The notes under the pieces were generated by a model. It searched no databases and was not told the origin of the DNA. It saw only the letters and a list, made by a program, of their open reading frames with translations. A DNA stretch of 64,000 nucleotides from Haliclona indistincta (taxonomy: Eukaryota > Porifera > Demospongiae > Haplosclerida > Chalinidae): positions 9,193,086 through 9,257,085 of the forward strand of contig OZ024785.1 in the NCBI GenBank assembly GCA_964017065.1. Reading direction: 5' to 3'. Positions 7,430-64,000 of this stretch are shown in pieces (within the stretch, counting starts at the first letter, position 1; every line of letters starts with the position of its first letter). The translations under genes and the position numbers were made by a program.

Positions 7430-8239
7430 CTTCTAGCTGAATCGGCTACACAGCAGCTAATTCTTAATGATATTCATTTACACTCAACGATATTCATGAC
7501 TTTGCAAAATTAATCATGCTTGTAAATTTTGATAATAAACAGTCACACATTGCAGCAGTTATCCAGTTTGCTATGTTGTAGTGATCACATCATTATTGAC
7601 ATCTCGATATTGTATGTGCCCAGAACCGACGACACTGTACATAGGATTATACGAAGACAATGTTATAGCTTGATCCTGCTCCCAGGCTGCTGTGGTAGAA
7701 CTCCCAACAGGAGGTGGATTAATAGCAACAGTAACACTCTCCTTTGTAGCTTCTTGATTCTGTATAGAAAGATACATGTATTACTAAGGGCACACTCAGA
7801 TAAATTATGTGCATTTGTTTACCTGTTTCTTCTTGTACCGCCAAACCATACACACAAACAAAATAAAAAATGATCCTGATATCATGATGAAAATAGCTAA
7901 GCACACATTTAAAATGATCATATAGGATACGTGTTTGTGTATTTCTCACCAAATGCTACTGAGACACTCACTAATGCCGGGTGTAAAGATTCTGTCATAA
8001 TTATTATGAACACAAAAATATTGATAATAGTGAGAGTTGTAGAGTATAGAAACTAACCTGTGGTTGTGGGTGTGGCTCCTAGTGCAGTACTACTGGACAG
8101 TAACACTGTGTATTTTGAAACAGACGCTGCCGTTGTTATGGTAACTGGTGCTGTTGTGTTGATGTCATCTACTGCATCACCATCAGTAGCTATGAAGGAC
8201 AGAGTTTCAATTAGGAGGAAAGCAGGAGGTTGCTAGTCC

Positions 8240-8848
8240 CCTTTAACTCTTTAGTGATCGAATCATTTTGACGAAAATTCGACTTGCTCTAAACTGACAG
8301 TTTGTCTTGCATTTTCTACAACATGCAGTACGCTAGCTATTCCAAACTAGCACTGTTTTTTCCTGGTATGTCAAAGTTTACGACTATGTACTAAACTCTG
8401 AGTTGGCCACACCCACTTCGGAACTGAAGCCACTTAAGTGCTGCGACCTCGTCATTTTCAGCCAATTTTGGTCTTCGTTTAGCCCTTGTGACTGATACAA
8501 AAACCTGGTGGTCTCCATGTGAGAAAACAGCATAGTTTAGACTATATTCCATGCCCAAGTATGCATTTCCGGGCATCCTGAAGCCTTAAAAATGCCAAAA
8601 GTGGCGAGGGGCTCTGCCCCTTCGAACCCCGGGTTAACGGGGGGATACCCCCTTTAAAATTCCCCCCGTGCTGTACGTTTCAGTAGGGAGGGCGCGCCAA
8701 AAAACAGTGGGTTTTTTCAGGTAAAGTCATCTTTTGCAATTAAACTTGATTTGACCTTTCTAGAGCACTTTTTGCACTTTTTATGACATCTAGAGTAGGT
8801 GGAGTCAATTATGACGCCTAAAGCCGCTATGGGCCTTAAAGGGTTAAC
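8240..8848. mobile_element. Repeat element inserted in receptor A, with imperfect terminal inverted repeats
   Basis: Ends are CCTTTAACTCTTTAG on the left and CTTAAAGGGTTAAC on the right, an imperfect inverted pair. The interior has a G/C-rich patch (about 8600-8670) unlike the surroundings, with mirrored runs around CCCCGGGTTAACGGGG. It lies exactly where the 5' part of the receptor A domain-4 exon should be. No transposase is seen, so it is probably non-autonomous. Confidence 0.55.
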
Positions 8849-9437
8849 ATAATCTCAGCTCCTTTTGAATCAGTATTGATTGACTCACTATACATCGCTG
8901 GCCCATCACTTTTTTATCAACAAGATTGGAACCAGATCGATGACCTGGTATAGTACATTGGGTATAACATTGATTTTTGTGCATGAACACATACTATACT
9001 GTCAGATGTACAGTATTCACAAAGCCATACATTAACTCACAAATGCTAACTGGTTTAGACATGCTGGTACCAAATGCATTCATTGCGATGATGACAGCAG
9101 TGAAGCTGGTGTCAGCCGGTAGATTATTGATCACAGCAGTGATAGGAGACATTGATAAAGAGGTCACATTGAGAGGGATGTATGAGATGTGATTATCCTG
9201 GTCCACTAGTTGGATGGTGTAGTTAGTGGGATAATGTCCACACTGTGTTTGGCTGTATGCAAAGAAGCATGATATAGTGATGGAACGCATCATGGATTTC
9301 TCATCACTGTCACACACAGCTAAAATTAATTGCTAAAGTCTGATTATAAGTGCCTATGAACACACCTATTGACTCATTAGGTGAGTGCATGAGTGGAGTA
9401 TCAGCTAAATGCAAAAATGGTACTGAATTGGTAGATA

Positions 9438-10692
9438 AAGAAAATTAAAAAGATTTCTATCGAAATCAAAAGGATGTAGGGTTGTGAAATCTACCACTGG
9501 TCAACAATGTAAACTAACAAGGAACAAGCATGGAATGGTAACACGATTGACTTGCTAACAGACCATAGATCCCTACATCAGTGGCTGCTGTAGTTGACTA
9601 TAGCTAGTTCAGCTTAGCTTGTTGCTGTTGACTGACACCTGACGTGCATTCAGCTTTTGACAGCTTATATGTACAGCCACTGATGTAGGGATCTATGGTC
9701 TGTTAGCAAGTCAATCGTGTTACCATTCCATGCTTGTTCCTTGTTAGTTTACATTGTTGACCAGTGGTAGATTTCACAACCCTACATCCTTTTGATTTCG
9801 ATAGAAATCTTTTTAATTTTCTTGTTTGTGTCCATTTTTTCTTTTTCAGTGTAGTACAGTTCAATGATATCATGCAATTACTGTGCCATCTTTGTTTCCA
9901 CCATTGGTTTGGTTTTCCTGTTGTTGATGGCTTTTCTTTATTATTAACAATTTTAAACTTGTAGCTAAATAAAGTCTTATGCTGTAGATATCAGCTCGCC
10001 TACGCATGCATGAATACAGTGCATACGAGCCCCGCCCACACTTGTTTACGGCGGTTATAATTATCTGGCAAGGCAGAATGGTGATTCTGCGCTTGCTAGC
10101 TTACCGTTCTTCGAAGACTCCAGACAAATATGTGTTCTCCGTGATCCATACGGCGTGGCGATACTCAAGCTTGTGCTTGGTCACGTGCGGCTAACCACAG
10201 CTTGGTCACGTGCGTATTGCGCAATCACTATAATTATTAATGGCGTCTAACACTTAGCTGACAATGGACCACGATCGAGAAATCGCAGAATTTATATCGC
10301 CGTTGCGCTAAAAACTAAGTTCAAAAGGCACATGCCAGGAGAATTTCACGACTGTTCGTGGGTGTTTTGGTCTCGGCACTGCTCACGTAAAGGTGCTAGG
10401 CGAGTGGAAGAAAGAAAGAAGAAAGAAAGAAAGAAAGAAAGAAAGAAGAAAACGAAGATGACGAAACTCGATTTTCACCGTTTCCAGGTTCGTCACTTTA
10501 GTAACAATCTCGAGCAATCTCCTTGCTACTGTAAGATGGGGCAACGCCATATAGCAGATTTAAGTGTCTTTGGACGTATAAAATTCATCACCAGGCGAAA
10601 TATCAGCGTTTGAACGCTAATACATTGTATGTAGCCGCCATCTTGTTTTCTCGTTCAACCCTACATAGGGAGACACTACCGTGTCTCCCTAA
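9438..10692. mobile_element. Repeat family H, copy H1 (about 1.25 kb)
   Basis: Begins AAGAAAATTAAAAAG and ends with the hairpin GGGAG...CTCCCTAA. An arm at about 9440-9585 returns inverted at 9670-9820. The right half (10000-10690) has conserved sequence shared with the copies at 52598-53828 and 38564-39450. It sits in the intron between exons 4 and 5 of receptor A. A polypurine (GAAA)n tract lies at about 10405-10455. No ORF of convincing coding quality is conserved. Confidence 0.8.
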
Positions 10693-11036
10693 TACATTGT
10701 AATCATACATTATGTAGCAGGCACTTGATACTGTACATGTATACATTTTGTCATGGTTGGAACTAGCTTATGAAAAACACCACTTTTGCATAAGTAACAA
10801 TGGACAGATTCATAGAGTGGAAAAATTTCGCTGAAGAAAATTTGCAAATAAAACGGGACAATAATGAATATTATTGCCTATTTACAATAATTATCTGCCT
10901 AGGGGCAATGAATAATCACTGATGTGGGTAAAATGTACAACATAATTATTGTGCCACAGCAGTACTCCTGGAAATTATGCTAAGAGTACTGACTGTGCAC
11001 CTTTCACTGATTCCTAATTTGGTGTATTGCACTCAC
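10693..11036. other. Intronic sequence, no feature recognised
   Basis: Between element H1 and exon 4 of receptor A. No coding exon, repeat or RNA gene was recognised. Confidence 0.5.
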
Positions 11037-12782: not shown

Positions 12783-14850
12783 CTATGTTCTATTGATCAC
12801 ACCATATGCTGGGCACTCCTTCATCTCAATATTGCTGCTCTGTGGTGAGAATGCTACTGCTGGTATATTCTCATATGAAGGACGAGTCTGTACTGAACTC
12901 TGAGACAATGGATCAATATTCTCATACGTTGGGACAGGAGTAGATGGAACAGTCAACGCAGCTCTTTGCTTCTGCAAAATTATGTTGGTCATTCAAATTT
13001 TTAAAACAATATACCTTGACTTGTTTATTGCAGTACAAAAGTAAGAACACAGAACTTAGAATAATTCCTGATACAATAATTGTCACTAAACCTGTGCGTG
13101 ATGCATTGTTATGATAATAAGTACAGTACCTATATAACTTACCAACAGCAACTACTACTGACACAATCACTATTGTACTAGTGTCACTGGATGGTAGACT
13201 AGTTGATACTGATAGTGAGTTTACACAAATCGAATAAGGCAATGTACTGTTGCAGGTACTGACCAGTATTGGATGATGATACAGTATTTTGAGTTGATGA
13301 TGTAGTAGTAGTGACATCAGGAACAGACACTCCTGCTATAGTAACTGGTGCTACAACATTGATGTCTTCTTCAGCATCAGCATCAGTAACTATGATAGTG
13401 TATGATGGGTTAGGGTCTACTTCTATGCAACCAGCAGTCTGATCAATTGTTCCATTATGCTCAGTTCCAGTTGTACTACATCTAAACAAGATGAAAGAAC
13501 TAGCTGGTTCAACATGACCCTCAACATATTCAATTCTAAGACACACTCTTCCATTTTCTACGTTCATCACTGTAGCATTGCTTAAATCAAAGGTGCCTGT
13601 AGAATTAATACTTGATAAAAAATTTTAAATGATCTTTTTGATATCACAATGCTTCAGTTCAAAAAGTTTGACACTTTATGTAAGCAGCACTCACTAATCA
13701 CAACTGGTTGTGACTGCTGTACCACTCCTCCATTATAGTGTATATTCAATGTTGCTGTGTACTTCCTGTTCTCCATTAGGTCAGTGAATGTAGCCATCAC
13801 TCTCCTCTCTCCATCAGGTAACATGCTCACTGTACCATTAGTACTAGTACAAGATGAGTTCAGACATGCTTCAACAGTAACATGGCTGATAGCATTTGTA
13901 CACACAGATATTTCCTGTACACAAAATATTGATACAAATTTTGTTATCACCACATGTTGCAGGATTAATGATTACCTCAAAATCAAAAGTGTATGTCCAG
14001 TTGGTGTTTGTAGTCCTCAAGGTATTCATCAATTTCACATCACTTACTATTCTCATACATACATGTAAAATCAAGTCAACATGCAGTAATGTCTCACTTG
14101 AGGAAGGTGTTTGTGTCATAATAATTGTAGCATTGCCAGTTCCTGCTCCATTCACTGCTGTTACCTCTACCTCCAGTGTCTCTCCCAGACTGCTCACACT
14201 ATAAAGGTACTCAGTGGTGTTTGTTGTGTCAGTCCTCAACATCATTCCATTAGTATCTGTTATGTTGATTATGTAGTTAATGGCTACCCCTTCCAGGCTG
14301 CTAGGAGCAATCCATGTGAAGTGTAGTGTAGAGCTGTCAACTGTAGTACTGATCAAGTTGCTAACTGGTGACAGGACACCTGCAGTTTACAATAATTCTC
14401 TATCTAGTTGTATAATGATCGAATTCTGTTACCTTGAATCATCAATACTGCAAAGCTCTGGTTAAAACCACCATTCATAGCTGTAGCAGTACAGACAATA
14501 CTAATACTGGTCTGGTCAGATGGAGCTATAAAGTTGAGTGTTACTAGTCTGTCTCCATTTGGTAGATCACTGCCACCAACAACACTGCCTTCTACTGTTG
14601 GATTAGTAGTTATACCTAAACTAGTCAGTTCACTCGCTGGAGCAGCACATGTGAACTCCATCATTGTACCAGCACTGACATTTCTTGACTGAGGTGTGGT
14701 TGAATACACTAGTTCTGCTGCATAGCTACCTGATACATAAAAGAAACAAAACAATACTTGTTAAAGAACTCTAGCTCTCTTTGATACAACTTGATCCATG
14801 CAGTCCTTACCTCTGGTAAACAGTACTAAGCTAGCAAGGAGCAGCAACAT
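12783..14850 (-). CDS. Receptor B1: Ig/FN3 type I receptor with YENI-YENI-YGVI tail (about 524 aa)
   Basis: Nine exons with consensus splice sites and matching phases: 14811-14850 signal (MLLLLASLVLFTRG), 14433-14729 Ig-like domain with two Cys but no core Trp, 14098-14379 FN3, 13976-14046 plus 13695-13914 second FN3-like domain, 13264-13596 Cys-containing third beta-sandwich-like domain, 13143-13208 stalk and start of the hydrophobic segment, 13015-13091 TM helix ending YCNKQVK, 12783-12971 tail. The tail has PTYENI, PSYENI and PAYGVI. YENI fits the Grb2 SH2 consensus pYxN and, as a pair 13 residues apart, is ITAM-like with a longer spacer. The protein is predicted to bind an unknown ligand at the cell surface and signal through tyrosine phosphorylation; that role is inferred from architecture only. 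This is the reference gene model for the other B copies. Confidence 0.85.
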
Positions 14851-14922: not shown

Positions 14923-15272
14923 TCACAACAGATGATAAATATTCACACCTCTCACAATAGTGTTATTGTGTTCTAGTAGAGCAGTAAATGATAGCACTAG
15001 TCGTTTTTCACTGCCAGGAAGGCTTTGAATAACCACATTGGTTTCAATAACATTCAGATTAGTGCTCCTAGTAATGAAATTTTGACTGTTTGTAGTAGCA
15101 CAAGTGAAGTCCACCAGCTGACCTAAACTGGTAGTAATGCTTCAGTTTATGTGGCAGCACTCACAAGTACAATTCCTGTTATAGCTAACACAGAATAATA
15201 ATGATATTTAATCCATCATAGATTCTTACCTCTACTAAACAGCAGCAAGCTAGCAAAGAGTAGTCGTCGCAT
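14923..15272 (-). pseudogene. 5' stub of a C-type receptor (signal exon and Ig exon remnant)
   Basis: A signal exon at about 15230-15272 (MRRLLFASLLLFSRG, with GT donor) is followed by a decayed Ig exon closely related to that of receptor C1 (50520-50819). The Ig exon has a TAA stop in its first 20 codons and an internal deletion, then an open stretch containing TALLEHNNTIVR. No FN3 or later exons follow; the stub abuts the promoter of B1. The same arrangement recurs at 63757-64000 upstream of B8. Confidence 0.75.
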
Positions 15273-15938: not shown

Positions 15939-18900
15939 TTATGTTGTAGTGATCACACCATATGCTGGACACTCCTTCATCTCAATATTGCTGCTCTGTG
16001 GTGAGAATGCTACTGCTGGTATGTTCTCATATGAAGGAGCAGTCTGCACTGAACTCTGAGACAATGGATCAATATTCTCGTACGTTGGGACAGGAGCAGG
16101 TGGAACAGTCAACGCATCTCTTTGGTTCTGCAAAATTATGTTAGTCATTCAAAAATTTACATCCTTCAAAACAATATACCTTGACTTTTTTATTGGAGTA
16201 CAAAAGTAGGAACACAGAACTTAGAATAATTCCTGATACAATAATTGTCACTAAACCTGTACGTGATGCATTGTTATGATAATAAGTACAGTACCTATAT
16301 AACTTACCAACAGCAACTACTACTGACACAATCACTATTGTACTAGTGTCACTGGATGGTAGACTAGTTGATACTGATAGTGAGGTTACACAAATCGAAT
16401 AAGGCAATGTACTGTTGCAGGTACTGACCAGTATTGGATGATGTTACAGTATTTTGAGTTGATGATGTAGTTGTAGTGACATCAGGAACAGACACTCCTG
16501 TTATAGTAACTGGTGCTACAACATTGATGTCTTCTACAGCATCAGCATCAGTAGCAATGATAGTGTATGATGGGTTAGGGTCTACCTCTATGCAACCAGC
16601 AGTCTGATCAATTGTTCCATTATGCTCAGTTCCAGTTGTACTACATCTAAACAAGATGAAAGAACTAGCTGGTTCAACATGACCCTCAACATATTCAACA
16701 CTAAGACACACTCTTCCATTCTCTATGTTCATCACCGTAGCATTACATAGATCAAAGGTGCCTGTAGAATTAATACTTGATAAATTTTCTCACTCCAGGT
16801 GTTTAAATATTTACTAATCTTTTTTATATCAAACTGTTTCCGTTTATCATTTTTGACACTATGTAAGCAACACTCACTGATCTCTACTGATTGTGATTGT
16901 TGCTCCACCCCTCCATTATACAGTACAGTCATTGAGGCAGAGTATTTTCTGTTCTCTATAAGATCAAAGCTCACTAGAGCATTAGTGGTCCCTGTAGCAG
17001 ACGTGCTACTACCAACAACACAAGAATCAGCTGCGAGACAGCTTCTGAATGTCATTACGGGTTTTGCTTCAGTGCAAATGACCTGGTTCTATACAAGAAT
17101 AATAAAATAATTATAATTATGTCGTAAATAATTATATGTCGTGGTCAGATTCCTCACATCGATTGTAAATGGGATCATCCAGGAAGTGGTGCTTCGTTGA
17201 ATGTTGCTCTTATCAATGGAGATAGGGATGGTAACACCAGCAGCTATTGAAATAAAAACACAATGCATAAGTAGCTAAAACATACATACCACAGTCAAGA
17301 GCAGGTCAAGAGTAAACTAAACAAGAACTGTTGCTTTAAAAACATGTGTTGTTCGTTGTATAATTTCCATAATGCGAACCGTTGGATAATATAGCACGGG
17401 CACAGGGGGTACGACAAGCTAATTTATTCTGACGTAGCTGCACGTAGGCAATACTTTAGTAAATCAAAATACATTCTGACTTTCCTGGTCTGCTACATCT
17501 TTAGAGGACAATTTGAATGGTAAGTATGTTGCTACCACTGCCCAAGACCTTTCATTTAAGCTACCTTACCCCACCCTTACCCCTTTTAGTTGCAGTACAG
17601 AGAGATGAAGATAGAGAATTGGTTGGTAAAAAGTTTCACCCAAGAAAGCACCAATGTGATCAAAACAGCATTGCTATCATTCTAGAGCATCATTCAGTTA
17701 ATAATGTAAAGAAATTTCGGCTGTGGCGCACAAACTCTGGCACAAGTGTTGTCCAATTACTGTAACAGCATATAACTAATTGTTTCAGCTATTTTCTGTA
17801 GATTGTCCTGGAATATTACTTGCCTTGATCTGGAGTGTAAACTATGCACATGCACCTGAGCTCGATACCATGTACTATAGCACGATGGCAAACTGTTTAA
17901 ACTATCCTGCATACATTCCAAAGTTCGTTAGTGGGCGTGTCGTATGTCAGCAATAATTATGTCAAATTAAATTAGCTTGTTGTACTCCAGGCAGAGGAGG
18001 TTGGAAGCATTGATATTCAGTCATGTGACATGTAAAATGTTTAAATTCACTCCATATCAAAATGTATGGTAAATCTTAGTTGTCAATTTTTACGCTATTC
18101 TCTGGACAGAATTTAACGAATTTAGTATGAATCGAAAGGTCTTGCAAAGCAGATTACAAATATGCGATCTGCCCAATCCATCCCATGGGTCCCTGAGTTG
18201 CTATGGGCAAGAAAGTGGTGAAGATTCTCAACAGTGGAAAACACTACAGTTATTGCTTGTGCAAGCAATCAGCTTATTGACAAGTCTGCTACAGACATCC
18301 TGAAGCAAAATCTTAGCGTTTAATAACGGCGAGCAAAGAGACAGCTCCCTTGTTACCTGCAAAACCCAATATACAGCTGACAAGACCTGGTCAGGGCTAG
18401 AACTAAGAAAGTCGCTAAAATGTAAGCTGTTTCAGAGCAGAATGATTCCTGAATCCAGCACAAGTGTGCTGTCTACTGGAGCTGTGCTACTTCTTCCTAG
18501 ATTTCACAACATACAGAGAACAGAAACTGGTGCAGTGCACTATACAAATAGCTAAACCGGTATTCTAAGATCATATCTTTAAGTAAGACCAGTAATCAAG
18601 CTCTATTTTACAAAGAATCCACAGATGAGTTCGAGTGCTGTATCATAACGCTATTGAGCCACGCCTCACAATGGAATGTTAGCTATGCTCATTTAAAAAT
18701 CACATGCGCATACTAATGCTTCCAACCTCCTCTGCCCCCCAGGGAAGTTATAGCACGGTGGGCGGAGACTGACCCTGGCTCGATCAACCTCAAGAAAAAT
18801 TTTCCCGGGCACAAGGACAGTGGCAAGCAGTCGTGCAACAAGCACTGTCTGCTCGTGGGGGAGTTATTGCGCTCGGGTACGCCCCTCACGCAATAATTCC

Positions 18901-19729
18901 TGTATTGCACTCGCAAAGGTGCTTTAACTAGTTAGTATTGTTGTGTTGGACATAATGATGTCTATGCTACATTGTTACCTGTTTCAGGGATATCCACTGT
19001 TATTTCACTTCCTGCTCCTTGTCCTGCTTGGTTTGTTGCAGTCACCATTATTGTATAAGTTTCTCCTAAAGCATCCGGTATATACAGGTATTCAGTTGTG
19101 TCGGAGGAGAACATGATTGGGAGATCAGTATCGACGTTTACACCAATAGTGTAGTTCAGTATAAGGACTCCTTGTAGAGTGTAGGGAGCAGTCCAGGTGA
19201 GACGTAGTGTACAGTGATCCACCTCAGTACTGGTCAGGTTACCAACAGGTGACAAGGGACCTACAGACAGAATGATTTATGTACTGCTTACTCTCTAGAG
19301 AGCATTGAGCACCTTGAATGAGCAATAGCGCAGGAGGTGAATTCTCAAAGATTCCCGTTCCATTGATAACTCCACCAGCACTACATGATATATTTGTGTT
19401 GTTAAACCCTGCCGAAGCTGTGAATGTTGCTGTTACATGCCTTACACCATCAGGTGTAAGAGTATTTGGTGAGATTTCTACATCAGCACCCGACAGCCCA
19501 TTCCAAGAGAGAGTGACTATTGCTCCATTGGGAACCGTACAGGTGAACATTACTGTAGAGTGTAGACTAACGTTTCTTGAGACAGGATATTCTGAGAATA
19601 CAGCATCATTCCCTGTAGTGGACAGAGTTTGTTCAACTAGTCACGAGTCGCAAGTTACAGAAAACTCATCGTCCTACCTTCGATAAGCAGCGTAAATAAC
19701 GCAATAAAGCATAATAGAGTCGTCTTCAT
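15939..19729 (-). CDS. Receptor B2: divergent ectodomain on the common tail (about 531 aa)
   Basis: Exons 19678-19729 signal (MKTTLLCFIALFTLLIEG), 19313-19612 Ig-like, 18979-19260 FN3, 17158-17243 and 16878-17088 second FN3-like domain, 16429-16761 domain 4, 16308-16373, 16180-16256 TM, 15939-16127 tail. All phases fit. The signal, Ig, FN3 and exons 4-5 differ strongly from other copies: the Ig has the core Trp (LSWNGLSG), and the second domain has its own Cys set (RSCLAADSC). From domain 4 to the stop it is nearly identical to B1, including both YENI motifs and YGVI. The sharp change in similarity points to gene conversion or exon exchange. Intron 3 (17244-18978) is enlarged by inserted sequence. 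Confidence 0.85.
17244..18978. repeat. Enlarged intron 3 of B2 with inverted-repeat insertion
   Basis: GCAGAGGAGGTTGGAAGCAT at 17993-18012 returns inverted at 18717-18736, suggesting an inserted element of about 740 bp. A stretch at about 18128-18560 has an interrupted plus-strand reading frame that I cannot identify. The corresponding intron in other copies is only 50-60 bp. Confidence 0.5.
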
Positions 19730-44700: not shown

Positions 44701-45215
44701 TCACTTTTGTAATGTAGAATGGTTATCAGTTCTTTGAGCAAGTGCATTAGCCAGTCGTACAGCACCGAGACTCTTCACACAATTGATGATGGTGATCCAT
44801 GAGTAGAACCTCTTCTGTGACTGCTCCTCCCACACATACAGCATGTCTTTGAGACAGCTCTCTTCATTTCCCATATTGTTCACTTCAATCTTATCAAGGT
44901 ATGTTGCAAGCCCCAGTTCTTCTCCTAGATTGTACCACAGTGGAGCTAGTGGAGTCAGTAGCTGGAATAATGTGGCGTGATGAAACAATAGATTATCAAT
45001 CCCATGAAGAATCTCTGTAAGATAGTGTTTAACGTAATTAATTGAGTCAACTTGAGTGTATATTGATCTAAGTATTTGTCTTCCTCCTCAAACAGGTCAT
45101 TGGCACAAAGAGTACAGTACTTTACACCAGAGTCTGATGGTAACTGCAAATGTTGTTGATGCTCACTTGTCTCAGTTTTGCGTGGAGGAGGCAATGTTTG
45201 TGTGAAGAGTGGCAC
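44701..45215 (-). pseudogene. Death-domain exon downstream of B4, frameshifted
   Basis: Begins at a splice acceptor (TTTAG then GTGCCACTC) in phase 0 with no ATG. The N-terminal segment is open for 86 codons, then a net 5-base insertion relative to the intact copy at 54797-55306 changes frame. The Death-domain half (LAPLWYNLGEELGL; CLKDMLYVWEEQSQKRFYSW; LANALAQR) is open in the other frame to the stop at 44701. It probably was an alternative last exon of B4, whose tyrosine tail ends at 45844. Confidence 0.75.
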
Positions 45216-48050: not shown

Positions 48051-48430
48051 TCACTTTTGTAATGCAGAATGGTTGTCAGTTCTTTGAGCAAGTGCATTAG
48101 CCAGTCGTACAGCACCGAGACTCTTCACACACTTGATGATGGTGATCCATGAGTAGAATCTCTTCTGTGACTGCTCCTCCCACACATACAGCATGGCATT
48201 GAGACAGATCTCTTCATTTCCCATATTGTTCACTTCAATCTTATCAAGGTGTGTTGTAATTAATTGAGTCAACTTGAGTGTATATTGAGCTAACTATTTG
48301 TCTTCCTCCTCAAACAGGTCATTGGCACGAAGAGTACAGTACTTGATGCTGAACGCTAATAAATGTTGTTGATGCTCACTTGTCTCAGTTTTGTGCAGAG
48401 GAGGCAGTGTTTGTGTGAAGAGTGGCACCT
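48051..48430 (-). pseudogene. Death-domain exon downstream of C1, truncated
   Basis: Same acceptor and 5' start as the other Death exons. An in-frame TAG follows FEEEDK, and about 35-40 codons covering the first Death-domain helices are deleted. The remaining part (CLNAMLYVWEEQSQKRFYSW to ALAQR) is open. Clearly non-functional as a Death domain. Confidence 0.8.
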
Positions 48431-51322: not shown

Positions 51323-54300
51323 TTATGTTCTAGTGATCACACCATATGCTGGACACTCCTTCATCTCAATATTGCTGCTCTGTGGTGAAAATGCTACTGC
51401 TGGTATGTTCTCATATGAAGGAGCAGTCTGCACTGAACTCTGTGACAATGGATCAATATTCTCATACGTTGGGACAGGAGCAGATGGAACAGTCAATGCA
51501 GCTCTTTTCTTCTGTAAAAATAATTATGTTAGTCATTCAAAATTTACATGCTTCAAAACAATATACCTTGACTTGTTTATTGCAGTACAAAAATAGGAAC
51601 ACAGAACTTACAATAATTCCTGATACAATAATTGTCACTAAACCTGTACGTGATGCATTGTTATGATAATAAGTACAGTACCTATATAACTTACCAACAG
51701 CAACTACTACTGACACAATCACTATTGTACTAGTGTCACTGGATGGTAGACTAGTTGATACTGATAGTGGGGTTACACAAATCGAATAAGGCAATGTACT
51801 GTTGCAGGTACTGACCAGTATTGGATGATGATACAGTATTTTGAGTTGATGATGTAGTAGTAGTGACATCAGGAACAGACACTCCTGTTATAGTAACTGG
51901 TACTATAACATTGATGTCTTCTTCAGCATCAGCATCAGTAACTATGATAGTGTATGATGGGTTAGGGTCTACTTCTATGCAACCAGCAGTCTGATCAATT
52001 GTTCCATTATGCTCAGTTCCAGTCATACTACATCTAAACAAGATGAAAGAACTAGCTGGTTCAACATGACCCTCAACATATTCAACACTAAGACACACTC
52101 TTCCATTCTCTATGTTCATCACTGTAGCATTGCGTACATCAAAGGTGCCTGTAGAATTAATAAATTGATAAAATTTTATTACAATGTTTCAGCTCATAAA
52201 TTTTGACACTTTATGTAAGCAACACTCACTAATCTCTACTAGTTGTGACTGCTGTACTATTCCTCCATTATAGTGTATATTCAATGTTGCTGTGTACTTC
52301 CTGTTCTCCATTAGGTCAGTGAATGTAGCCATCACTCTCCTCTCTCCATCAGGTAACATGCTCACTGTACCATTAGTACTAGTACAAGATGAGTTCAGAC
52401 ATGCTTCAACAGTAACATGACTGATAGCATTTGTACACACAGATATTTCCTGTACACAAAATATTGATACAAATTTTGTTATCACCATGACGCAGGATTA
52501 ATAATTACCTCAAAATCAAAAGTGTATGTCCAGTTGGTGTTTGTACTGGAATTGGTCCTCAAAGTATTGGTAAATTTCATGTCACTTACTATGTTCACAA
52601 GAAAATAAAAAGATTTCTAACGAAATCAAAAGGATGTAGGGATAAAGAAATTTGTTACTGGTCCACAATGTAAACCAACAAGGAGCAAGCATGGAATGGT
52701 AACACGATTGACTTGCTAACAGACCATAGATCCCTACATCAGTGGCTGTACATAACATTTTGACTATACTATAATTATTTTGTCACAAGCTAAATTCAAT
52801 TCAATGCATGTCAGGTGTCAGCCAATAGCAACTAGCAGAACTGCTGTAGTCAGCCACTGATGTAGGGATCTATGGTCTGTTAGCAAGTCAATCGTGTTAC
52901 CATTCCATGCTTGCTCCTTGTTGGTTTACATTGTGGACCAGTAACAGATTTCTTTATCCCTACATCCTTTTGATTTCGTTAGAAATCTTTTTATTTTCTT
53001 GTTTGTGTCCTTTTTTCTTTTACAGTGAGTTTCAAATTTTTGGCGCAGTTCGAATTCGGCAAGATAATGTATCTCTGTTTTGTTTCCGTCATTGGTTTGG
53101 TTTGCTTTCTTAACAATTGATTTTTAACTTGTAGCTCCTATAAATACTGAAACTAGGTCATGCATTCATGCATGCTGAAGCCTGGATGCACAGCATACGA
53201 GCCCCGCCCACTCTGGCTTAGAATGTTCTGCATGGCTGTGATACTATCTGGCAAGCAGCAGAACGGTGATACTACACGAGCTTACTCTGTGAGTTGTTCT
53301 TCGAAGACTCCAGACGTCAATATGCGCTCTCCATACGGCGATACTCTACAAGTGTGTTTGGTCACGTGCGTATTACGTAATCACAATAATGGCGTCAAAC
53401 ACTTAGCTGACAACTGTTCGTGATCGTGAGCTCGTCAAATGTATATCGTCGTTTCGCTAAAAACTAAGTTCAAAAGGCACATGCCAGGAGAATTTCACGA
53501 CTGTTCGTGGGTGTTTTGGTCTCGGCACTGCCCGCGTAAAGGCGCTAGGCGAGTGGAAGAAAGAAAGAAAGAAAGAAGAAGAAGAAAACGAAGATGACGA
53601 AAGTCGATTTTCACCGTTTCCAGGTTCGTCACTTCAGTAACAATTTCGAGCAATCTCCTTGCTACTGTAAGATGGGGCAACGCCAGAGAGCAGATCTAAG
53701 TGTCTTTGGACGTATACAATTCATCACTAGGCGAAATATCAGCGTTTGAACGCTAATACATTGTGTGTAGCCGCCATCTTTTTTTCTCGTTCATCCCTAC
53801 ATAGGGAGTCACTACCGTGCCTCCCTAATACATACATGTGAAATTAAGTCAACGTGCAGTAATGTCTCACTTGATGAAGGTGTTTGTGTCATAATAATTG
53901 TAGTATTCCCAGCTCCTGCTCCATTCACTGCTGTCACCTCTATCTCCAGTGTTTCTCCCAGACTGCTCACACTATAAAGGTACTCAGTGGTGTTTGTTGT
54001 GTCAGTCCTCAACACTGCTCCATCACTGTGTCTAGTGATGTTGATGGTGTAGTAGTTAATAGGGACTCCTTGTAGGGTGTAGGGAGCAGTCCAGGTGAGA
54101 CGTAATGTACAGTGATCCACCTCAGTACTGGTCAGGTCACCAACAGGTGATAGTATACCTGTATCATGTACATAATACACATGTATGGCAGTTATAATAT
54201 TCAACTACCTTGAATCATCAATACTGCTATGGTCTGGTTAAAAGTAGTAGTTGCAGCAACACAAGCAATATTAATGATGGTCTGATCAGATGGAGCAATG

Positions 54301-54661
54301 AAGCTTAGTGTCAATTCTCTGTCTCCATTAGATAGATTATTGTCATCAGTAACACTGTCTTCTACCTGTGGTGTAGCAGTTATACCAAGAAAAATCAGTC
54401 CACTCGCTGGAGTAGCACATGTGAACTCCACCATTGTACCAGCACTGACATTTCTTGACTGAGGTGTGGTTGAAAACACTATACCTGTTACATAGCTACC
54501 TGAAATACATCAAAGATACTTCTTAAAGAACTCCAGAACTCTAGAACTCTCTACTCTACTCCAGAACTCTAGAACTCTTAAAGAACTCTCTTTGATACAA
54601 CTTGATCCATGCAGTCCTTACCTCTGGTAAACAGTACCAAGCTAGCAAGGAGCAGCAACAT
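51323..54661 (-). CDS. Receptor B5: Ig/FN3 receptor with a repeat element in intron 3 (about 527 aa)
   Basis: Exons 54622-54661, 54209-54499, 53871-54158, 52509-52588, about 52231-52450, about 51816-52148, about 51695-51760, about 51567-51643 and 51323-51511. All are open with fitting phases. The 1.2 kb element H2 (52598-53828) lies in intron 3, leaving splice sites intact. The first half of the FN3 domain (LTSTEVDHCTLRLTWTAP) is of the B2/C1 type, whereas the second half (RHSDGAVLRTDTTN) and the Ig exon are B type, so the ectodomain is mosaic. The tail has YENI, YENI and YGVI. Confidence 0.85.
52598..53828. mobile_element. Repeat family H, intact copy H2 (1.23 kb)
   Basis: Host sequence GTTCA before and TACATACATG after rejoin to match the uninterrupted intron of B6, so the ends are exact. 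No target duplication is needed beyond the bases at the junction; insertion is between A and T. The left arm (52606-52745) returns inverted at 52853-53002, forming a large hairpin, and the right end has GGGAGTCACTACCGTGCCTCCC as a terminal stem-loop. No transposase is present. Confidence 0.85.
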
Positions 54662-54796: not shown

Positions 54797-55306
54797 TCAC
54801 TTTTGTAATGCAGAATGGTAGTCAGTTCTTTGAGCAAGTGCATTAGCCAATCGTACAGCACCGAGACTCTTCACACACTTGATGATGGTTATCCATGAGT
54901 AGAATCTCTTCTGTGACTGCTCCTCCCACACATACAGCATGGCTTTGAGACAGCTCTCTTCATTTCCCATATTGTTCACTTCAATCTTCTCAAGGTGTGT
55001 TGTAAGCCCCAGTTCTTCTCCTAGATGGTACCACAGTGGAGCTAGTGGGGTCAGTAGCTGGAATAATGTGGCGTGATGAAACACTAGATTATCAATCCCA
55101 TGAAGAATCTCTGTAATGTAGTGTTTAACAAACTGAGTCAACTTGAGTGTATATTGACCTAAGCAATTGTTTTCCTCCTCAAGAAGGTCTTTGGCATGAA
55201 GAGTTGAGGGCTTTACATCACAGTCTAATGGTAACTGCAACTGTTGTTGATGCTCGCTTGTCTCCGTTTTGAGCAGAGGAGGCAGTTTTTGTGTGAAGAG
55301 TGGCAC
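54797..55306 (-). CDS. Death-domain exon, intact; candidate alternative last exon of receptor B6
   Basis: An open frame of 169 codons plus stop begins directly after a good splice acceptor (CTGCCTTTAG) with GTG (Val), in phase 0; its only in-frame Met is inside the Death domain, so it must be joined to an upstream exon. The nearest upstream phase-0 donor on this strand is the TM exon of B6 (ending NKQVK). Residues about 1-75 are a linker rich in Gln, Leu and acidic residues; about 80-165 fit a Death domain (LTPLAPLWYHLGEELGL; CLKAMLYVWEEQSQKRF; SWITIIKCVKSLGAVRLANALAQR), with the characteristic Trp residues and amphipathic helices. Splicing would give a receptor with a Death-domain tail instead of the tyrosine tail. 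A separate gene with an unseen first exon is the alternative. Confidence 0.7.
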   Translation of the reverse strand: MPLFTQKLPPLLKTETSEHQQQLQLPLDCDVKPSTLHAKDLLEEENNCLGQYTLKLTQFVKHYITEILHGIDNLVFHHATLFQLLTPLAPLWYHLGEELGLTTHLEKIEVNNMGNEESCLKAMLYVWEEQSQKRFYSWITIIKCVKSLGAVRLANALAQRTDYHSALQK

Positions 55307-55973: not shown

Positions 55974-58020
55974 CTATGTTCTAGTGATCACACCATATGC
56001 TGGACACTCCTTCATCTCAATATTGCTGCTCTGTGGTGATAATGCTACTGCTGGTATGTTCTCATATGAAGGAGCAGTCTGCACTGAACTCTGAGACAAT
56101 GGATCAATATTTTCATACGTTGGGACAGGAGCAGATGGAACAGTCAATGCAGCTCCTTGCTTCTACAAAATTATAATAGTCATTCAAAAATTTACATGCT
56201 TCAAAACAATATACCTTGACTTGTTTATTGCAGTACAATAGTAGGAACACAGAACTTACAAGAATTCCTGATACAATAATTGTCACTAAACCTGTACGTG
56301 ATGCATTGTTATGATAATAAGTACAGTACCTATATAACTTACCAACAGCAACTACTACTGACACAATCACTATTGTACTAGTGTCACTGGATGGTAGACT
56401 AGTTGATACTGATAGTGGGGTTACACAAATCGAATAAGGCAATGTACTGTTGCAGGTACTGACCAGTATTGGATGATGATACAGTATTTTGAGTTGATGA
56501 TGTAGTAGTAGTGACATCAGGAACAGACACTCCTGTTATAGTAACTGGTGCTACAACATTGATGTCTTCTTCAGCATCAGTATCAGTAACGATGATAGTG
56601 TATGATGGATTAGGGTCTACTTCTATACAACCAGCAGTCTGATCAATTGTTCCATTATGCTCAGTTCCAGTCGTACTACAACTAAACAAGATGAAAGAAC
56701 TAGCTGGTTCAACATGACCCTCAACATATTCAACACTAAGACACACTCTTCCATTCTCTATGTTCATCACTGTAGCATTGCGTACATCAAAGGTGCCTGT
56801 ACAATTAACAATTGATAAATTTATTATATTGTTTCAGCTCATAAATTTTGACACTTTATGTAAGCAGCACTCACCAATCTCTACTAGTTGTGACTGCTGT
56901 ACCACTCCTCCATTATAGTGTATATTCAATGTTGCTGTGTACTTCCTGTTCTCCATTAGATCAGTGAATGTAGCCATCACTCTCCTCTCTCCATCAGGTA
57001 ACATGCTCACTGTACCATTAGTACTAGTACAAGATGAGTTCAGACATGCTTCAACAGTAACATGGCTAATAGCATTGGTACACACAGATGTTCCCTGCAC
57101 ACAAAATATTGATACAAATTTTGTTATCACCATGACACAGCATTAATAATTACCTCAAATTCAAAAGTGTATGTCCATTTGGTGTTTGTACTGGAATTGG
57201 TCCTCAAGGTATTGGTAAATTCCATGTCACTTACTATGTTCATACATACATGTGAAATTAAGTCAACGTGCAGTAATGTCTCACTTGATGAAGGTGTTTG
57301 TGTCATAATAATTGTAGCATTCCTAGCTGGCCCTGCACCATTCGTTGCCGTGACCTCTATCTCCAGTGTTTCTCCCAGACTGCTCACACTATAAAGGTAC
57401 TCAGTGGTGTTTGTTGTGTCAGTCCTCAACACTGCTCCATCACTGTGTCTAGTGATGTTGATTATGTAGCTAATGGCTACCCCTTCCAGGCTGCTAGGAG
57501 CAATCCATGTGAAGCGTAGTGTACAGTTGTCAACTGTAGTACTGATCAAGTTGCTAACTGGTGACAGGACACCTGCAGTTTACAATATTTATCTGTCTAG
57601 TATAATGATCGAGTTCTGTTACCTTGAATCATCAATACTGCCAAGCTCTGGTTGAAACCAGTAGGTGCTGCAGCAAAACAAACAATACTAATACTGGTCT
57701 GGTCAGATGGAGCTATAAAGTTGAGTGTTACTAGTCTGTCTCCATTTGGTAGATCACTGCCACCAACAACACTGCCTCCTACTGTTGGAGTAGTAATTAG
57801 ACCTAAACTAGTCAGTCCACTCGCTGGAGCAGCACATGCAAACTCCACCATTGTACCAGCACTGACATTTCTTGACTGAGGTGTGGTTGAAAACACTATT
57901 CCTGCTACATAGCTACCTGAGATACATCAAAGAAACAAACCAATACTTGTTAAAAAAACTCTAGATCTATCAGTCCTTACCTCTGGTAAACAGTACTAAG
58001 CTAGCAAGTAGCAGCAACAT
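55974..58020 (-). CDS. Receptor B6: Ig/FN3 receptor (about 528 aa)
   Basis: Exons 57981-58020, 57623-57916, 57285-57572, 57154-57233, 56875-57094, about 56464-56796, about 56343-56408, about 56215-56291 and 55974-56162; lengths and phases agree. Ig has a Phe-Ala-Cys first Cys context and loop residues LITTPTVGGSVVGG; FN3 is of the SLEGVAISY/RHSDGAV type. The tail has YENI, YENI and YGVI. It is the only receptor here followed by an intact Death-domain exon (54797-55306), making it the best candidate for two alternative signalling tails. Confidence 0.87.
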
Positions 58021-58514: not shown

Positions 58515-60594
58515 TTATGTTCTAGTGATCACACCATATGCTGGACACTCCTTCATCTCAATATTGCTGCTCTGTGGTGAGAATGCTACTGCTGGTATGT
58601 TCTCATATGAAGGAGCAGTCTGCACTGAACTCTGAGACAATGGATCAATATTCTCATACGTTGGGACAGGAGCAGGTGGAACAGTCAACGCAGCTCTTTT
58701 CTTCTGCAATATTATGTTAGTCATTCAAAAATTTACATGCTTCAAAACAATATACCTTGACTTTTTTATTGCAGTACAAAAGTAGAAACACAGAACTTAG
58801 AATAATTCCTGATACAATAATTGTCACTAAACCTGTACGTGATGCATTGTTATGATAATAAGTACAGTACCTATATAACTTACCAACAGCAACTACTACT
58901 GACACAATCACTATTGTACTAGTGTCACTGGATGGTAGACTAGTTGATACTGATAGTGGGGTTACACAAATCGAATAAGGCAATGTACTGTTGCAGGTAC
59001 TGACCAGTATTGGATGATGATACAGTATTTTGAGTTAATGATGTAGTAGTAGTGACATCAGGAACAGACACTCCTGTTATAGTAACTGGTGCTACATCAT
59101 TGATGTCTTCTACAGCATCAGCATCAGTAGCGATGATAGTGTATGATGGGTTAGGGTCTACTTCTATGCAACCAGCAGTCTGATCAATTGTTCCATTGTG
59201 CTCAGTTCCAGTCGTACTACATCTAAACAAGATGAAAGAACTAGCTGGTTCAACATGACCCTCAACATATTCAACACTGAGACACACTCTTCCATTCTCT
59301 ATGTTCATCACTGTAGCATTGCGTACATCAAAGGTGCCTGTAGAATTAATACTTGATAATAATTTTAAATGATCTTTTTGATATCACAATGTTTCAGCAC
59401 ATGAATTTTGACACTTCATGTAAACTTCACTCACTAATCTCTACTTGTTGTGACTGCTGTACCACTCCTCCATTATAGTGTATATTCAATGTTGCTGTGT
59501 ACTTCCTGTTCTCCATTAGGTCAGTGAATGTAGCCATCACTCTCCTCTCTCCATCAGGTAACATGCTCACTGTACCATTAGTACTAGTACAAGATGAGTT
59601 CAGACATGCTTCAACGATAGCATGACTGATAGCATTTCCACACACAGATGTTTCCTGCACACAAATAATGATACAAATTTGTTATCACCATGACGCAGCA
59701 TTAATGATTATTACCTCAAAATCAAAAGTGTATGTCCAGTTGGTGTTGGTCCTCGAGGTACTCATCAAGGTACTGATAAATTTCACACCACTTACTATGT
59801 TCAAACATACCTGTGAAATTAAGTCAACGTGCAGTAATAACTCACTTGATGAAGGTGTTTGTGTCATAATAATTGTAGCACTGCCAGTTCCTGCTCCATT
59901 CACTGCTGTCACCTCTATCTCCAGTGTTTCTCCCAGACTGCTCACACTATAAAGGTACTCAGTGGTGTTTGTTGTGTCAGTCCTCAACATCATTCCATTA
60001 GTATCTGTTATGTTGATTATGTAGTTAATGGCTACCCCTTCCAGGCTGCTAGGAGCAATCCATGTGAAGCGTAGTGTACAGCTGTCAACTGTAGTACTGA
60101 TCAAGTAGCTAACTGGTGACAGGACACCTGCAGTTTACAATAATTCGCTATCTAGTATAATGATCAAGTTCTGTTACCTTGAATTATCAATACTGCCAAG
60201 CTCTGGTTGAATCCAGTAGTTGTTGTAGCAACACAGGCAATACTAATACTGGTCTGGTCAGACGGAGCTATAAAGTTCAGTGTTATTAGTCTGTCTCCAT
60301 TTGGTAGATCACTGCCATCAACAACACTTCCTTCTACTGTTGGATTAGTACTTATACTAAAAGTAGTCAGTCCACTCGCTGGAGCAGCACATGTGAACTC
60401 CACCATTGTACCAGCACTGACATTTCTTGACTGAGGTGTGGTTGAAAACACTATTCCTGCTGCATAGCTACCTGAGATACATCAAAGAAACAAAACAGTA
60501 CATGTTAAAGAACTCAAGATCTATTTGATACAACTTGATCCATGCAGTCCTTACCTCTGGTAAACAATACTAAGCTAGCAAGGAGCAGCAACAT
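58515..60594 (-). CDS. Receptor B7: Ig/FN3 receptor (about 526 aa)
   Basis: Exons 60555-60594, 60178-60471, 59846-60127, 59715-59794, 59435-59654, about 59005-59337, about 58884-58949, about 58756-58832 and 58515-about 58703. Fully open with correct phases. The FN3 has the DTNGMMLRTDTTN variant shared with B1; exon 4 is SGVKFISTLMSTSRTNTNWT. The tail starts KKRAALTVPPAPVPTYENI and keeps all three Tyr motifs. Confidence 0.86.
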
Positions 60595-60699: not shown

Positions 60700-61003
60700 T
60701 TTTCAACATGAGCAAGTGCATTAGCCAGTCGTACAGCACCGAGACTCTTCACACACTTGATGATGGTTATCCATGAGTAGAATCTCTTCTTTGACTGCTC
60801 CTCCCACACATACAGCATGGCTTTGAGACAGCTCTCTTCATTTCCCATATATCTAATTATTTGTCTTCCTCCTCAAACAGGTCATTGGTACGAAGAGTAC
60901 AGTACTTTAAATCAGAGTCTGATTTTAACTGCAACTGTTGTTGATGCTCACTTGTCTCAGTTTTGTGTGGAGGAGGTAGTGTTTGTGTGAAGAGTAGAAC
61001 CTA
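60700..61003 (-). pseudogene. Death-domain exon downstream of B8, truncated
   Basis: 5' acceptor and first ~45 codons are present with a TAG after FEEEDK. A large internal deletion removes the linker and first helices, and the remaining CMCG... part is out of frame. It cannot encode a Death domain. Confidence 0.75.
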
Positions 61004-61625: not shown

Positions 61626-63657
61626 CTATGTTCTAGTGATCACACCGTATGCTGGACACTCCTTCATCTCAATATTGCTGCTCTGTGGTGAGAATGCTAC
61701 TGCTGGTATGTTCTCATATGAAGGAGCAGTCTGTACTGAACTCTGAGACAATGGATCAATATTCTCATACATTGGGACAGGAGCAGGTGGAACAGTCAAC
61801 ACAGCTCTTTGCTTCTGCAAAATTATGTTAGTCATTCAACAATTTACGTGCTTCAAACAATAATTATACCTTGACTTTTTTATTGCAGTACAAAAGTAGA
61901 AACACAGAGCTTATAATAATTCCTGATACAATAATTGTCACTAAACCTGTACGTGATGCATTGTTATGATAATAAGTACAGTACCTTTATAACTTACCAA
62001 CAGCAACTACTACTGACACAATCACTATTGTACTAGTGTCACTGGATGGTAGACTAGTTGATACTGATAGTGGGGTTACACAAATCGAATAAGGCAATGT
62101 ACTGTTGCAGGTACTGACCAGTATTGGATGATGATACAGTATTTTGAGTTGATGATGTAGTAGTAGTGACATCAGGAACAGACACTCCTGTTATAGTAAC
62201 TGGTGCTACAACATTGATGTCTTCTACAGCATCAGCATCAGTAACTATGATAGTGTATGATGGGTTAGGGTCTACTTCTATGCAACCAGCAGTCTGATCA
62301 ATTGTTCCATTATGCTCAGTTCCAGTCGTAGTGCATCTAAACAAGATGAAAGAACTAGCTGGTTCAACATGACCCTCAACATATTGAACACTAAGACACA
62401 CTCTTCCATTCTCTATGTCCATCACTGTAGCATTGCGTACATCGAAAGTGCCTACAGAGGATTCAACCTTAAATGGATTAAACAACATTGGAATCAACAC
62501 TAACTAAGAGTCCCCACTGGTTGTGACTGCTGTACCACTCCTCCATTATAGTGTATATTCAATGTTGCTGTGTACTTCCTGTTCTCCATTAGGTCAGTGA
62601 ATGTAGCCATCACTCTCCTCTCTCCATCAGGTAACATGCTCACTGTACCATTAGTACTAGTACAAGATGAGTTCAGACATGCTTCAACAGTAAGATGGCT
62701 GACAGCATTTTTACACACGAATCTTTCCTGCACACAAAATATCAGAACCAAATACCAGTTATCTCATGATACCAGTTAATACCTCAAAATCAAAAATGTA
62801 TGTCCAGTTGATGTTTGTACTGGAATTGGTCATCGAGGAATTCATCAAGATACTGCTAAATTCCACACCACTTACTATGTTCATAGATGTTCAATTCAGT
62901 CTGTTTGATGCAAGTATTCTCACTTGATGAAGGTGTTTGTGTCATAATAGATGTTGTATTCCCAGTCCCGGCATCATTGACTGCTGCCACCTCTATCTCC
63001 AGTGTTTCTCCCAGACTGCTCACACTATAAAGGTACTCAGTGGTGTTTGTTGTGTCAGTCCTCAACACCATTCCATTAGTATCTGTTATGCTGATCATGT
63101 AGCTAATGGCTACCCCTTCCAGGCTGCTAGGAGCAATCCATGTGAAGCGTAGTGTACAGCTGTCAACTGTAGTACTGATCAAGTTGCTAACTGGTGACAG
63201 GACACCTGCAGTTTACAATATTTCTCTGTCTAATAAATTATAATGATCGATTCTTTTACCTTGAATCATCAATACTGCCAAGCTCTGGTTGAATCCAGTA
63301 GTTGTTGTAGCAACACAAGCAATGCTAATACTGGTCTGGTCAGATGGAGCTATAAAGTTCAGTGTTATTAGTCTGTCTCCATTTGGTAGATCACTGCCAC
63401 CAACAGCACTGCCTCCTACTGTTGGATTAGTACTTATACTAAAAGTGGTCAGTTCACTGGCTGGAGCAGCACATGTGAACTCCACCATTGTACCAACACT
63501 GACATTTCTTGACTGAGGTGTGGTTGAAAACACTATTCCTGCTGCATAGCTACCTGAGATACATCAAAGAAAGATAATAATACTTCAGCGTTAAAGAACT
63601 CTTCTATATGTCCTTACCTCTGGTAAACAGTATTAAGCTAGCAAGGAGCAGCAACAT
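61626..63657 (-). CDS. Receptor B8: Ig/FN3 receptor (about 531 aa)
   Basis: Exons 63618-63657, 63260-63553, 62924-63205, 62783-62874, 62505-62727, 62119-62451, about 61998-62063, about 61870-61946 and 61626-about 61814. Phases fit throughout. Exon 4 is four codons longer than usual (LMNSSMTNSSTNINWT), exon 5 ends QPVGTL with a GTTAGT donor, and domain 4 begins after a shorter intron. The tail keeps YENI, YENI and YGVI. Upstream lies a C-type stub as for B1, so B1 and B8 probably derive from one duplicated unit. Confidence 0.86.
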
Positions 63658-63705
63658 CTGAAGAGTCAGTGATAAAGTGAACATTAAGTAAATAAGTTCA
63701 CAGAT

Positions 63706-63711
63706 CATGTG
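63706..63711. promoter_or_regulatory. CATGTG variant box in B8 promoter
   Basis: CAGATCATGTGCTCAC, 49 bases upstream of the B8 ATG, the same variant as B6. Confidence 0.45.
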
Positions 63712-63756
63712 CTCACAATTATATTTACTGTCACAACAGATGATAAATATTCATAC

Positions 63757-64000
63757 CTTTCACAATAGTGTTATCGTGTTCTAGTAGAGCAGTAAATGAT
63801 AGCACTGATCGTTCTCCACCACCAGGAAGGCTTTGAATAACCACATTGGTTTCAAACATTCGGATTAGTGCTCCAAGTGATGATATCTTGACTGTTTGTT
63901 TTAGGACAAGTGAAGTTCACTAGCTGGCCTATACTGACATTTGTGGTAGTGTGCTTCAGTTACTGTGGCAGCAGTCACAATTACAAGTCCTGTTATAGCC
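63757..64000 (-). pseudogene. C-type receptor Ig-exon stub, runs off the window
   Basis: Closely related to the Ig exon of C1 and to the stub at 14923-15272 (TALLEHDNTIV). Several small deletions relative to C1 (near 63855, 63895 and 63945) break the frame. The signal exon would lie beyond the right edge. Confidence 0.7.

Follow-up and report, generated by a model that had tools for sequence, protein, structure and literature searches.

What kind of locus is a tandem array of single-pass receptor genes in a sponge, and how does it change? The array studied here, whose products combine immunoglobulin (Ig) and fibronectin type III (FN3) domains with tyrosine-bearing tails, is found in Haliclona indistincta. 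We analyzed a 64,000-nucleotide (nt) stretch of contig OZ024785.1 (positions 9,193,086 to 9,257,085; the window), which is one slice of an ~290-kilobase (kb) array of about forty related cell-surface receptor genes that passes both window ends. Sponge graft-rejection receptors and much of sponge immune recognition are not settled; in the accessible text of the Amphimedon graft study, no significant enrichment of cell-adhesion or aggregation-factor genes was reported (PMC5450542). An array small enough to be mapped, whose intact receptors vary at the tip and stay constant in the tail, offers a direct candidate for sponge recognition. We consider it probable that the array is a tandem locus of single-pass receptors that diversifies by copying and swapping ectodomain exons while retaining a small set of signaling tails. 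As read from the sequence, exons 2 to 4 are variable, exon 6 and the transmembrane exons 7 and 8 are near constant, and two classes of tail are present.

Receptor genes in the window

Nine-exon models were rebuilt with explicit splice sites for G1 to G9 on the minus strand. These nine genes have GT-AG borders and common entry phases of 0, 1, 1, 1, 0, 1, 1, 1, and 0 (in G7, only as far as exon 8). Eight of them (G1 to G6, G8, and G9) have an uninterrupted reading frame of 525 to 532 codons, stop included. An earlier note on this DNA had likewise counted eight intact genes; its claim that ten same-strand genes follow one nine-exon plan held for these nine, the tenth (G10) being a diverged relic. 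The genes are listed by window position, with ectodomain types A, B, and C named for likeness to G2, G5, and G8, respectively.

61626..63657, minus strand: G1, intact, nine exons, 531 amino acids (exon model)
58515..60594, minus strand: G2, intact, 526 amino acids; type A reference; exon 9 tail at 58703-58515
55974..58020, minus strand: G3, intact, 528 amino acids; open, splice-compatible Death-domain tail exon pair downstream
51323..54661, minus strand: G4, intact, 527 amino acids; intron 3 of ~1.3 kb
48852..50903, minus strand: G5, intact, 531 amino acids; ectodomain type B
45844..47900, minus strand: G6, intact, 525 amino acids
42498..44565, minus strand: G7, exon 8 frameshift; tail not reached
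15939..19729, minus strand: G8, intact, 531 amino acids; type C exons 1 to 5 plus common-type exons 6 to 9; intron 3 of ~1.7 kb
12783..14850, minus strand: G9, intact, 524 amino acids
7571..12497, minus strand: G10, diverged, broken relative, read by inspection
63758..63996, minus strand: broken type B exon 2 fragment upstream of G1
14950..15272, minus strand: type B exons 1 and 2 fragment upstream of G9

The frame of G7 is lost ahead of the tail through a 2-nt deficit in exon 8, the transmembrane exon. G10 carries an in-frame TGA in exon 3 and an insertion, its exon 6 is truncated, and YENI is missing from its tail; the paired YENI motifs ascribed earlier to all ten tails are thus present, at the DNA level, in nine.

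The predicted proteins consist of a signal peptide, an I-set-like Ig domain, FN3-type domains, one transmembrane segment, and a tyrosine tail. Within the ectodomain, the Ig domain is followed by an FN3 domain, a stretch over exons 4 and 5 in the position of a second FN3 domain, and an FN3-like exon 6. Pfam fn3 scored above the cutoff in all three proteins scanned (G2, G5, and G8; 33.6, 27.9, and 32.8 bits, respectively), and Ig_2 scored below it (13.7 bits). Structure prediction of the ectodomain exons, proposed in the earlier note as a check, supported an Ig fold for exon 2 and an FN3-like fold for exon 6. The Ig-FN3-FN3-like ectodomain described there was recovered in part: the fn3 matches and the Ig and FN3-like folds bear it out, whereas exons 4 and 5 are assigned to the second FN3 place by position and the Ig_2 match is below the cutoff. 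The single transmembrane segment was also borne out, the strongest hydrophobic window lying at exons 7 and 8 in each of G1 to G9. An alignment of six of the proteins found no relative at E ≤ 0.001 among 7980 scored candidates, a result that says little because the library seems poor in animal proteins.

Extent of the array

The array occupies C3:9.12-9.41 Mb on contig C3. In the 144-Mb genome, a search with the tail returned 51 matching rows, all on the minus strand, of which 42 fall within one 272-kb interval (C3:9.13-9.41 Mb). The query matched its own place at E = 4e-35 and other tails at up to E = 2e-32. Matches of this strength, together with the concentration of 42 of 51 rows in a single interval, argue that the family is not a product of chance. 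The remaining rows comprise six diverged tails at C3:5.85-5.93 Mb (weakest E = 0.12), one on C10, and two on C9, the last three being weak. A search with exon 6 gave 64 rows, of which 51 lie in C3:9.12-9.41 Mb, five on C10, seven on C9, and one on C2. Automatic models of C3:9128086-9407085, a 279-kb stretch with 200 N, yielded 54 gene groups. Of these, 20 are intact, 4 are open but carry a single unusual splice mark, 9 are broken nine-exon genes, and 21 are partial (a few of the broken and partial calls may be model faults). The neighbors at 9303066 and 9298466 give near-identical exon matches, which may reflect either very recent copying or duplication in the assembly. The earlier note missed the true size of the array, along with its module shuffling and its Death-domain outputs.

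Diversity of ectodomain and 3′ exons

Ectodomain types A, B, and C are recombined at exon borders. Of the 24 open genes, type A accounts for 15 over their full length and type B for 3, and 6 are mosaics: two AAABBBBBB genes (a near-identical pair), one BBBAAAAAA, one BBAAAAAAA, and two with type C exons 1 to 5 on common exons 6 to 9. Across the 15 type A genes, diversity was 0.113 in exon 2, 0.137 in exon 3, 0.249 in exon 4, and 0.059 in exon 5, with values of 0.24 to 0.32 in introns 2 to 5. In the 3′ block, it was 0.030 in exon 6, 0.024 in intron 6, 0.004 in exon 7, 0.020 in intron 7, and 0.048 in exon 8. Because the introns of the exon 6 to 8 block are as uniform as its exons, the pattern points to homogenization by conversion or unequal crossing-over rather than by selection alone. 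The diversity that had earlier been called allele-like is diversity among the paralogues of one assembly.

Distance matrices were correlated between exons 2 and 3 (r = 0.76) and between exons 4 and 5 (r = 0.66), with values of 0.31 to 0.48 between those pairs. Exons 2 to 5 compared with exon 6 or 9 gave r = −0.20 to 0.08 (for exon 2, 0.04 with exon 6 and 0.08 with exon 9), and exon 6 compared with exon 9 gave 0.08. No matrix was significantly correlated with physical distance (exon 9, r = 0.27, p = 0.06). Since the matrices of exons 2 to 5 disagree with those of exons 6 and 9, tips and tails seem to evolve as separate modules.

In 17 type A copies, the variable residues of exon 2 are 30 to 54 and the FG loop (82 to 90). 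At residues 30 to 54, nonsynonymous differences (pN = 0.169) exceeded synonymous differences (pS = 0.094), with pN > pS in 97% of codon bootstraps; these regions were chosen after their variability was seen and the copies are not independent, and the excess hints at diversifying selection without proving it. In exons 3 and 6, pN was below pS (95% intervals below zero).

The tyrosine tail

The tail carries three tyrosines, in YENI, YENI, and AYGVI, all within YxxI/V motifs; when the G2 tail was shuffled 20000 times, three YxxPhi motifs were reached in 129 cases. The consensus of the immunoreceptor tyrosine-based inhibitory motif (ITIM) is [S/I/V/L]xYxx[I/V/L], and that of the corresponding activation motif (ITAM) is YxxL/I, 6 to 12 residues, YxxL/I. 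The eight intact window genes contain neither canonical form: each of the three tyrosines has proline at position −2, and 13 residues separate the two YENI motifs, one over the usual ITAM limit and thus a near miss. Among 39 exon 9 readings, a few do fit: position −2 suits the ITIM at a single tyrosine in the copy at 9282605 (Ser), the copy at 9295109 (Leu), and G7 (Leu), all three of which are broken or partial, and the YENI spacing is 10 in the copy at 9268984. The description of these tails as ITAM/ITIM-like accordingly stands for the YxxI/V context of all three tyrosines but not for the strict consensus.

In the 15 type A genes, diversity of the tail was 0.043, versus 0.097 in intron 8 and 0.310 in the 300 nt downstream, and tail codons 15 to 62 had a pN/pS of 0.33. 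This combination points to purifying selection on the tyrosine part of the tail. For the whole of exon 9, pN was below pS with an interval touching zero.

Related tails occur outside the array. Although its protein has clearly diverged, a paralogue in the C10 cluster retains the full set of nine exons and their phases, and YENA, YEEL, and AYGHV occupy the places of the three tyrosine motifs. At C3:5.88 Mb, a tail that is 59% identical over 58 residues (E = 1e-16; YESV, YRNI, and AYGVI) joins an EGF-like, cysteine-rich single-pass gene through a splice that is in frame by inspection (EGF matches are below the Pfam cutoff). Judged by these relatives, the tail is an old, portable module. Adhesion G protein-coupled receptor-like and other seven-pass frames lie beside the EGF-like receptor in locus L032 (C3:5884001-5894000; by inspection).

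Death-domain units and Death-domain members

Four stretches between receptor genes of the window are related to Death domains.

54797..55306, minus strand: Death-domain tail exons in the G3-G4 interval; Pfam Death, 22.5 bits (cutoff, 22.6); readable as a single open frame of 169 codons or as two exons separated by a 48-nt intron
44704..45215, minus strand: Death-domain unit in the G6-G7 interval; two halves in different frames
48054..48428, minus strand: Death-domain unit in the G5-G6 interval; internal deletion and stop
60711..61000, minus strand: Death-domain unit in the G1-G2 interval; decayed

Such units lie ~140 nt upstream of type A exon 1, at a distance of ~350 nt to 3 kb downstream of the gene that precedes them. 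A near full-length unit accompanies 19 of 26 first exons of type A, and in 12 of these units the Death part is open (pN/pS = 0.40; 95% interval of pN − pS = −0.093 to −0.019). The preceding part, its intron not removed, is open in 5 of the 19 (pN/pS = 0.70, interval spanning zero). Close relatives of the unit were detected in this cluster only; outside it, generic Death domains matched at 30 to 41% identity (150 of 357 candidates scored).

Three relatives join a Death domain to a receptor or transmembrane stretch. In L034 (C3:9118201-9120800), a type A-like receptor with its own transmembrane and cytoplasmic exons is open over ten exons from within exon 2 to the stop (622 codons including the stop) and contains a Death domain scoring 31.0 bits (cutoff, 22.6). 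A type C/D gene (9157894-9155556) is open from exon 3 to the stop, and its 3′ end is exactly the intergenic Death-domain unit. A third transmembrane-plus-Death stretch, in L024, scored 32.9 bits. L034 and the type C/D gene thus have the layout of Death-domain receptors (single pass, cytoplasmic Death domain), which the tyrosine-tailed genes do not. Given these three relatives, the units above type A genes are most simply interpreted as 3′ ends of Death-domain receptors that were copied along with them. We rejected the reading of the unit as an ordinary exon of the downstream gene, since it lies ~140 nt above type A exon 1 and matches the 3′ ends of type C/D genes. In locus L012, a cytoplasmic exon at 7970-8085 resembles that of the L024 Death-domain gene and ends in a stop without a Death domain (by inspection).

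The end of exon 8 in the tyrosine-tailed genes and the start of the Death-domain unit are both in phase 0, so alternative splicing from exon 8 to the Death-domain exons is possible. Among the 34 genes examined, at least two, G3 and the one at 9303066, are followed by a complete open acceptor-donor-acceptor set, the pattern search being strict. With so few complete sets, the exon pair is unsupported as a working alternative tail of most genes.

Comparison with known systems

Published systems are compared here as far as the accessible text of each cited paper describes them. The closest known are the Alr complex of Hydractinia and the Fester co-receptor (FcoR) genes of Botryllus schlosseri, both of which resemble the array in layout; it belongs to neither. 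The Alr complex is a cluster of ~40 immunoglobulin superfamily (IgSF) genes (40 Alr and Alr-like genes in PMC11876637, 41 in PMC11999971), some of them potential pseudogenes, with ITIM/ITAM-type tails on candidates (PMC11876637, PMC11999971, and PMC12065747). Tandem single-pass receptors with tyrosine-motif tails are common to both loci. Alr ectodomains, however, are built of V-set-like and I-set Ig domains, whereas the sponge proteins have one I-set-like Ig domain and FN3 modules, and the sponge array shares exons with Death-domain tails and belongs to another phylum. FcoR proteins are type I, of 520 to 610 amino acids, with tails bearing ITIM, hemITAM, or YxxI/L/V (PMC12065747). The sponge tail carries the core YxxI/L/V motif three times, without a canonical ITIM in the intact window genes, and Ig and FN3 domains stand in place of the V-type Ig, sushi, and two C2 Ig domains of FcoR. 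Membership in either family is excluded because the ectodomain departs from their definition and the strict ITIM and ITAM are lacking in the intact window genes.

Other receptors agree with the array in single features. Sponge Ig-TIR receptors likewise pair an Ig ectodomain with an innate signaling domain (PMC7308585); the array proteins differ in having FN3 modules and a Death-domain or tyrosine tail, and TIR was absent from the Pfam results for the proteins scanned. The Ig-domain receptor tyrosine kinase of Geodia cydonium (cited in PMC12018476) is also a sponge receptor with an Ig ectodomain, but the Pfam scan of G2, G5, and G8 showed no kinase domain, and we rejected receptor tyrosine kinases of this type, or fragments of them, as an identity. 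LAR-type receptor tyrosine phosphatases and NCAM share the Ig-then-FN3 layout, with profile matches to PTP-delta and NCAM2; the array proteins differ in lacking a phosphatase domain, in their short tails, and in their single tandem array. The sponge aggregation factor contains Calx-beta and related domains. It was rejected because no Calx-beta-type domain appeared when G2, G5, G8, and related pieces of sequence were scanned with Pfam. A literature search found no description of this array, most subscription papers (including the 2022 Alr paper) being outside its reach.

What the locus may do

The tandem array, the modular mosaics, and the variable ectodomain over a conserved tyrosine tail make a recognition-receptor cluster the best reading, and the interpretation in the earlier note is supported to that extent. 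The locus is a good candidate for self/non-self or immune recognition; an allorecognition role would be a hypothesis within it. Several results weigh against a recognition locus that diversifies by exon swapping over conserved outputs. No Death-domain member is read intact from a start codon, since L034 is read from within exon 2 and exon 2 of the type C/D gene is truncated. The matrix correlations are weakened by the low diversity of exons 6 and 9. At residues 30 to 54 of exon 2, the 95% interval of pN − pS is −0.001 to 0.139, which leaves positive selection unproven; in the FG loop, pN is 0.227 and pS is 0.256, and exon 2 overall has a pN/pS of 0.86 with an interval spanning zero. The start of the tail is not conserved (codons 1 to 14, pN/pS = 1.70), and the 9 broken and 21 partial groups of 54 also fit birth-and-death evolution.

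The last of these would be expected if the array were largely the outcome of neutral birth-and-death, with copies arising by unequal crossing-over, conversion homogenizing the 3′ half, and most copies doing little. Introns 6 and 7, as uniform as exons 6 to 8, bear the mark of conversion rather than selection, and repeats are inserted between copies (by inspection). Such neutrality nonetheless seems distinctly improbable in view of at least 20 intact open reading frames, a tail conserved beyond its flanks, and pN below pS in exons 3 and 6 (for exon 9, the interval touches zero). A developmental adhesion or cell-sorting family like Dscam or protocadherins, with no immune role, would account for the solved folds and sequences that lie close to exons 2, 3, and 6, among them MuSK, LAR-type phosphatases, titin, NCAM2, and fibronectin, although these comparison lists consist of common folds and do not exclude families missing from them. 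The short conserved-tyrosine tail, the Death-domain members, and the rapid turnover with many broken copies are unusual for such families, and we judge this origin to be the least probable of the four alternatives considered here.

Recognition itself could be directed at different targets. An innate role in sensing microbes or symbionts, which would make the array the cell-surface counterpart to the expanded SRCR or NLR families of sponges, is possible but doubtful: Death-domain outputs fit innate signaling, and the accessible text of PMC7308585 describes sponge Ig-TIR receptors as well as these expansions, yet Ig/FN3 ectodomains are equally suited to cell-cell contacts. We are slightly more doubtful that the receptors are polymorphic self/non-self determinants of an allorecognition locus, as Alr is in Hydractinia. 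The cluster is similar in size to Alr, has tyrosine tails, and shows mosaic diversification, and candidates in Botryllus and Hydractinia also have ITIM, ITAM, or YxxI/L/V tails (PMC12065747, accessible text); against this, the words immunoglobulin, fibronectin, and tandem do not occur in the accessible text of the Amphimedon graft transcriptome paper (PMC5450542), although that study was made on another sponge.

For a recognition-receptor cluster, the Ig/FN3 tip would bind a variable ligand, which could be a microbe, a second cell, or a different copy or allele. In the tail, the tyrosines would be phosphorylated by Src-family kinases, and SH2 proteins would dock at the phosphorylated sites; YENI fits Src-family kinase/Grb2-type SH2 binding. 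Death-domain members would feed a cell-death or NF-kB type output. Taken furthest, the locus would be a histocompatibility-type sponge complex with two outputs, in which shuffled Ig/FN3 cassettes sit on a three-tyrosine or a Death-domain tail, at least G3 can choose between the two by exon 8 splicing, and recognition can lead to signaling of a tolerance or a death type. We regard this full scheme as unlikely. If true, tyrosine and Death-domain tails on one ectodomain family would represent one recognition system with two outputs in an early animal lineage.

Neighboring features and other observations

A lysosomal-type alpha-mannosidase gene lies within the receptor array on the minus strand (window about 2606-7429, extent by inspection; Glyco_hydro_38N over the Pfam cutoff, Alpha-mann_mid just below it), and receptor copies continue beyond it at C3:9.13-9.18 Mb. 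Between G7 and G8 are a tandem repeat with a 57-bp unit (window 29670-30411; 13 copies, 99% match, several frames open), two overlapping frames that by eye resemble a transposase-type DDE/integrase fragment and have no Pfam match (32669-33413), and a 182-codon RING-finger-like frame on the plus strand with Pfam matches below the cutoff (35843-36391). By inspection, a foldback (inverted-repeat) element seems to recur in introns of the array and between copies (window 9400-9990, L024 4240-4660, and L012 6770-7130). An element of ~600 nt, also identified by inspection, is repeated in the broken exon 6 region of G10 (window 8260-8870) and in L032 (3610-4180), where it lies in the intron ahead of the C3:5.88 Mb tail exon.

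Elsewhere in the genome, other dense FN3 clusters were detected at C1:5.9-6.3 Mb, C10:6.1-6.5 Mb, C5:0.9-1.0 and 5.1-5.2 Mb, and C8:0.5-0.67 Mb (150 of 2225 candidates scored). One 4.5-kb cluster read for silicatein contains cathepsin-type genes with the usual cysteine and is uninformative as a sponge marker. On the mitochondrial contig C46 (L035), COX1 is open when TGA is read as tryptophan, by inspection, one AGA codon stands where the best solved match has arginine, and three transfer RNAs lie in 4.3 kb. This mitochondrial DNA is sponge-like: arginine at AGA argues against bilaterians and the presence of several transfer RNAs against cnidarians, which, taken with short introns and the 144-Mb genome, makes a sponge the most likely source. 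C46 also carries a 94-codon frame that we take to be nad4L and, after tRNA-Asn, an intergenic stretch rich in repeated GC-rich palindromes (by inspection).

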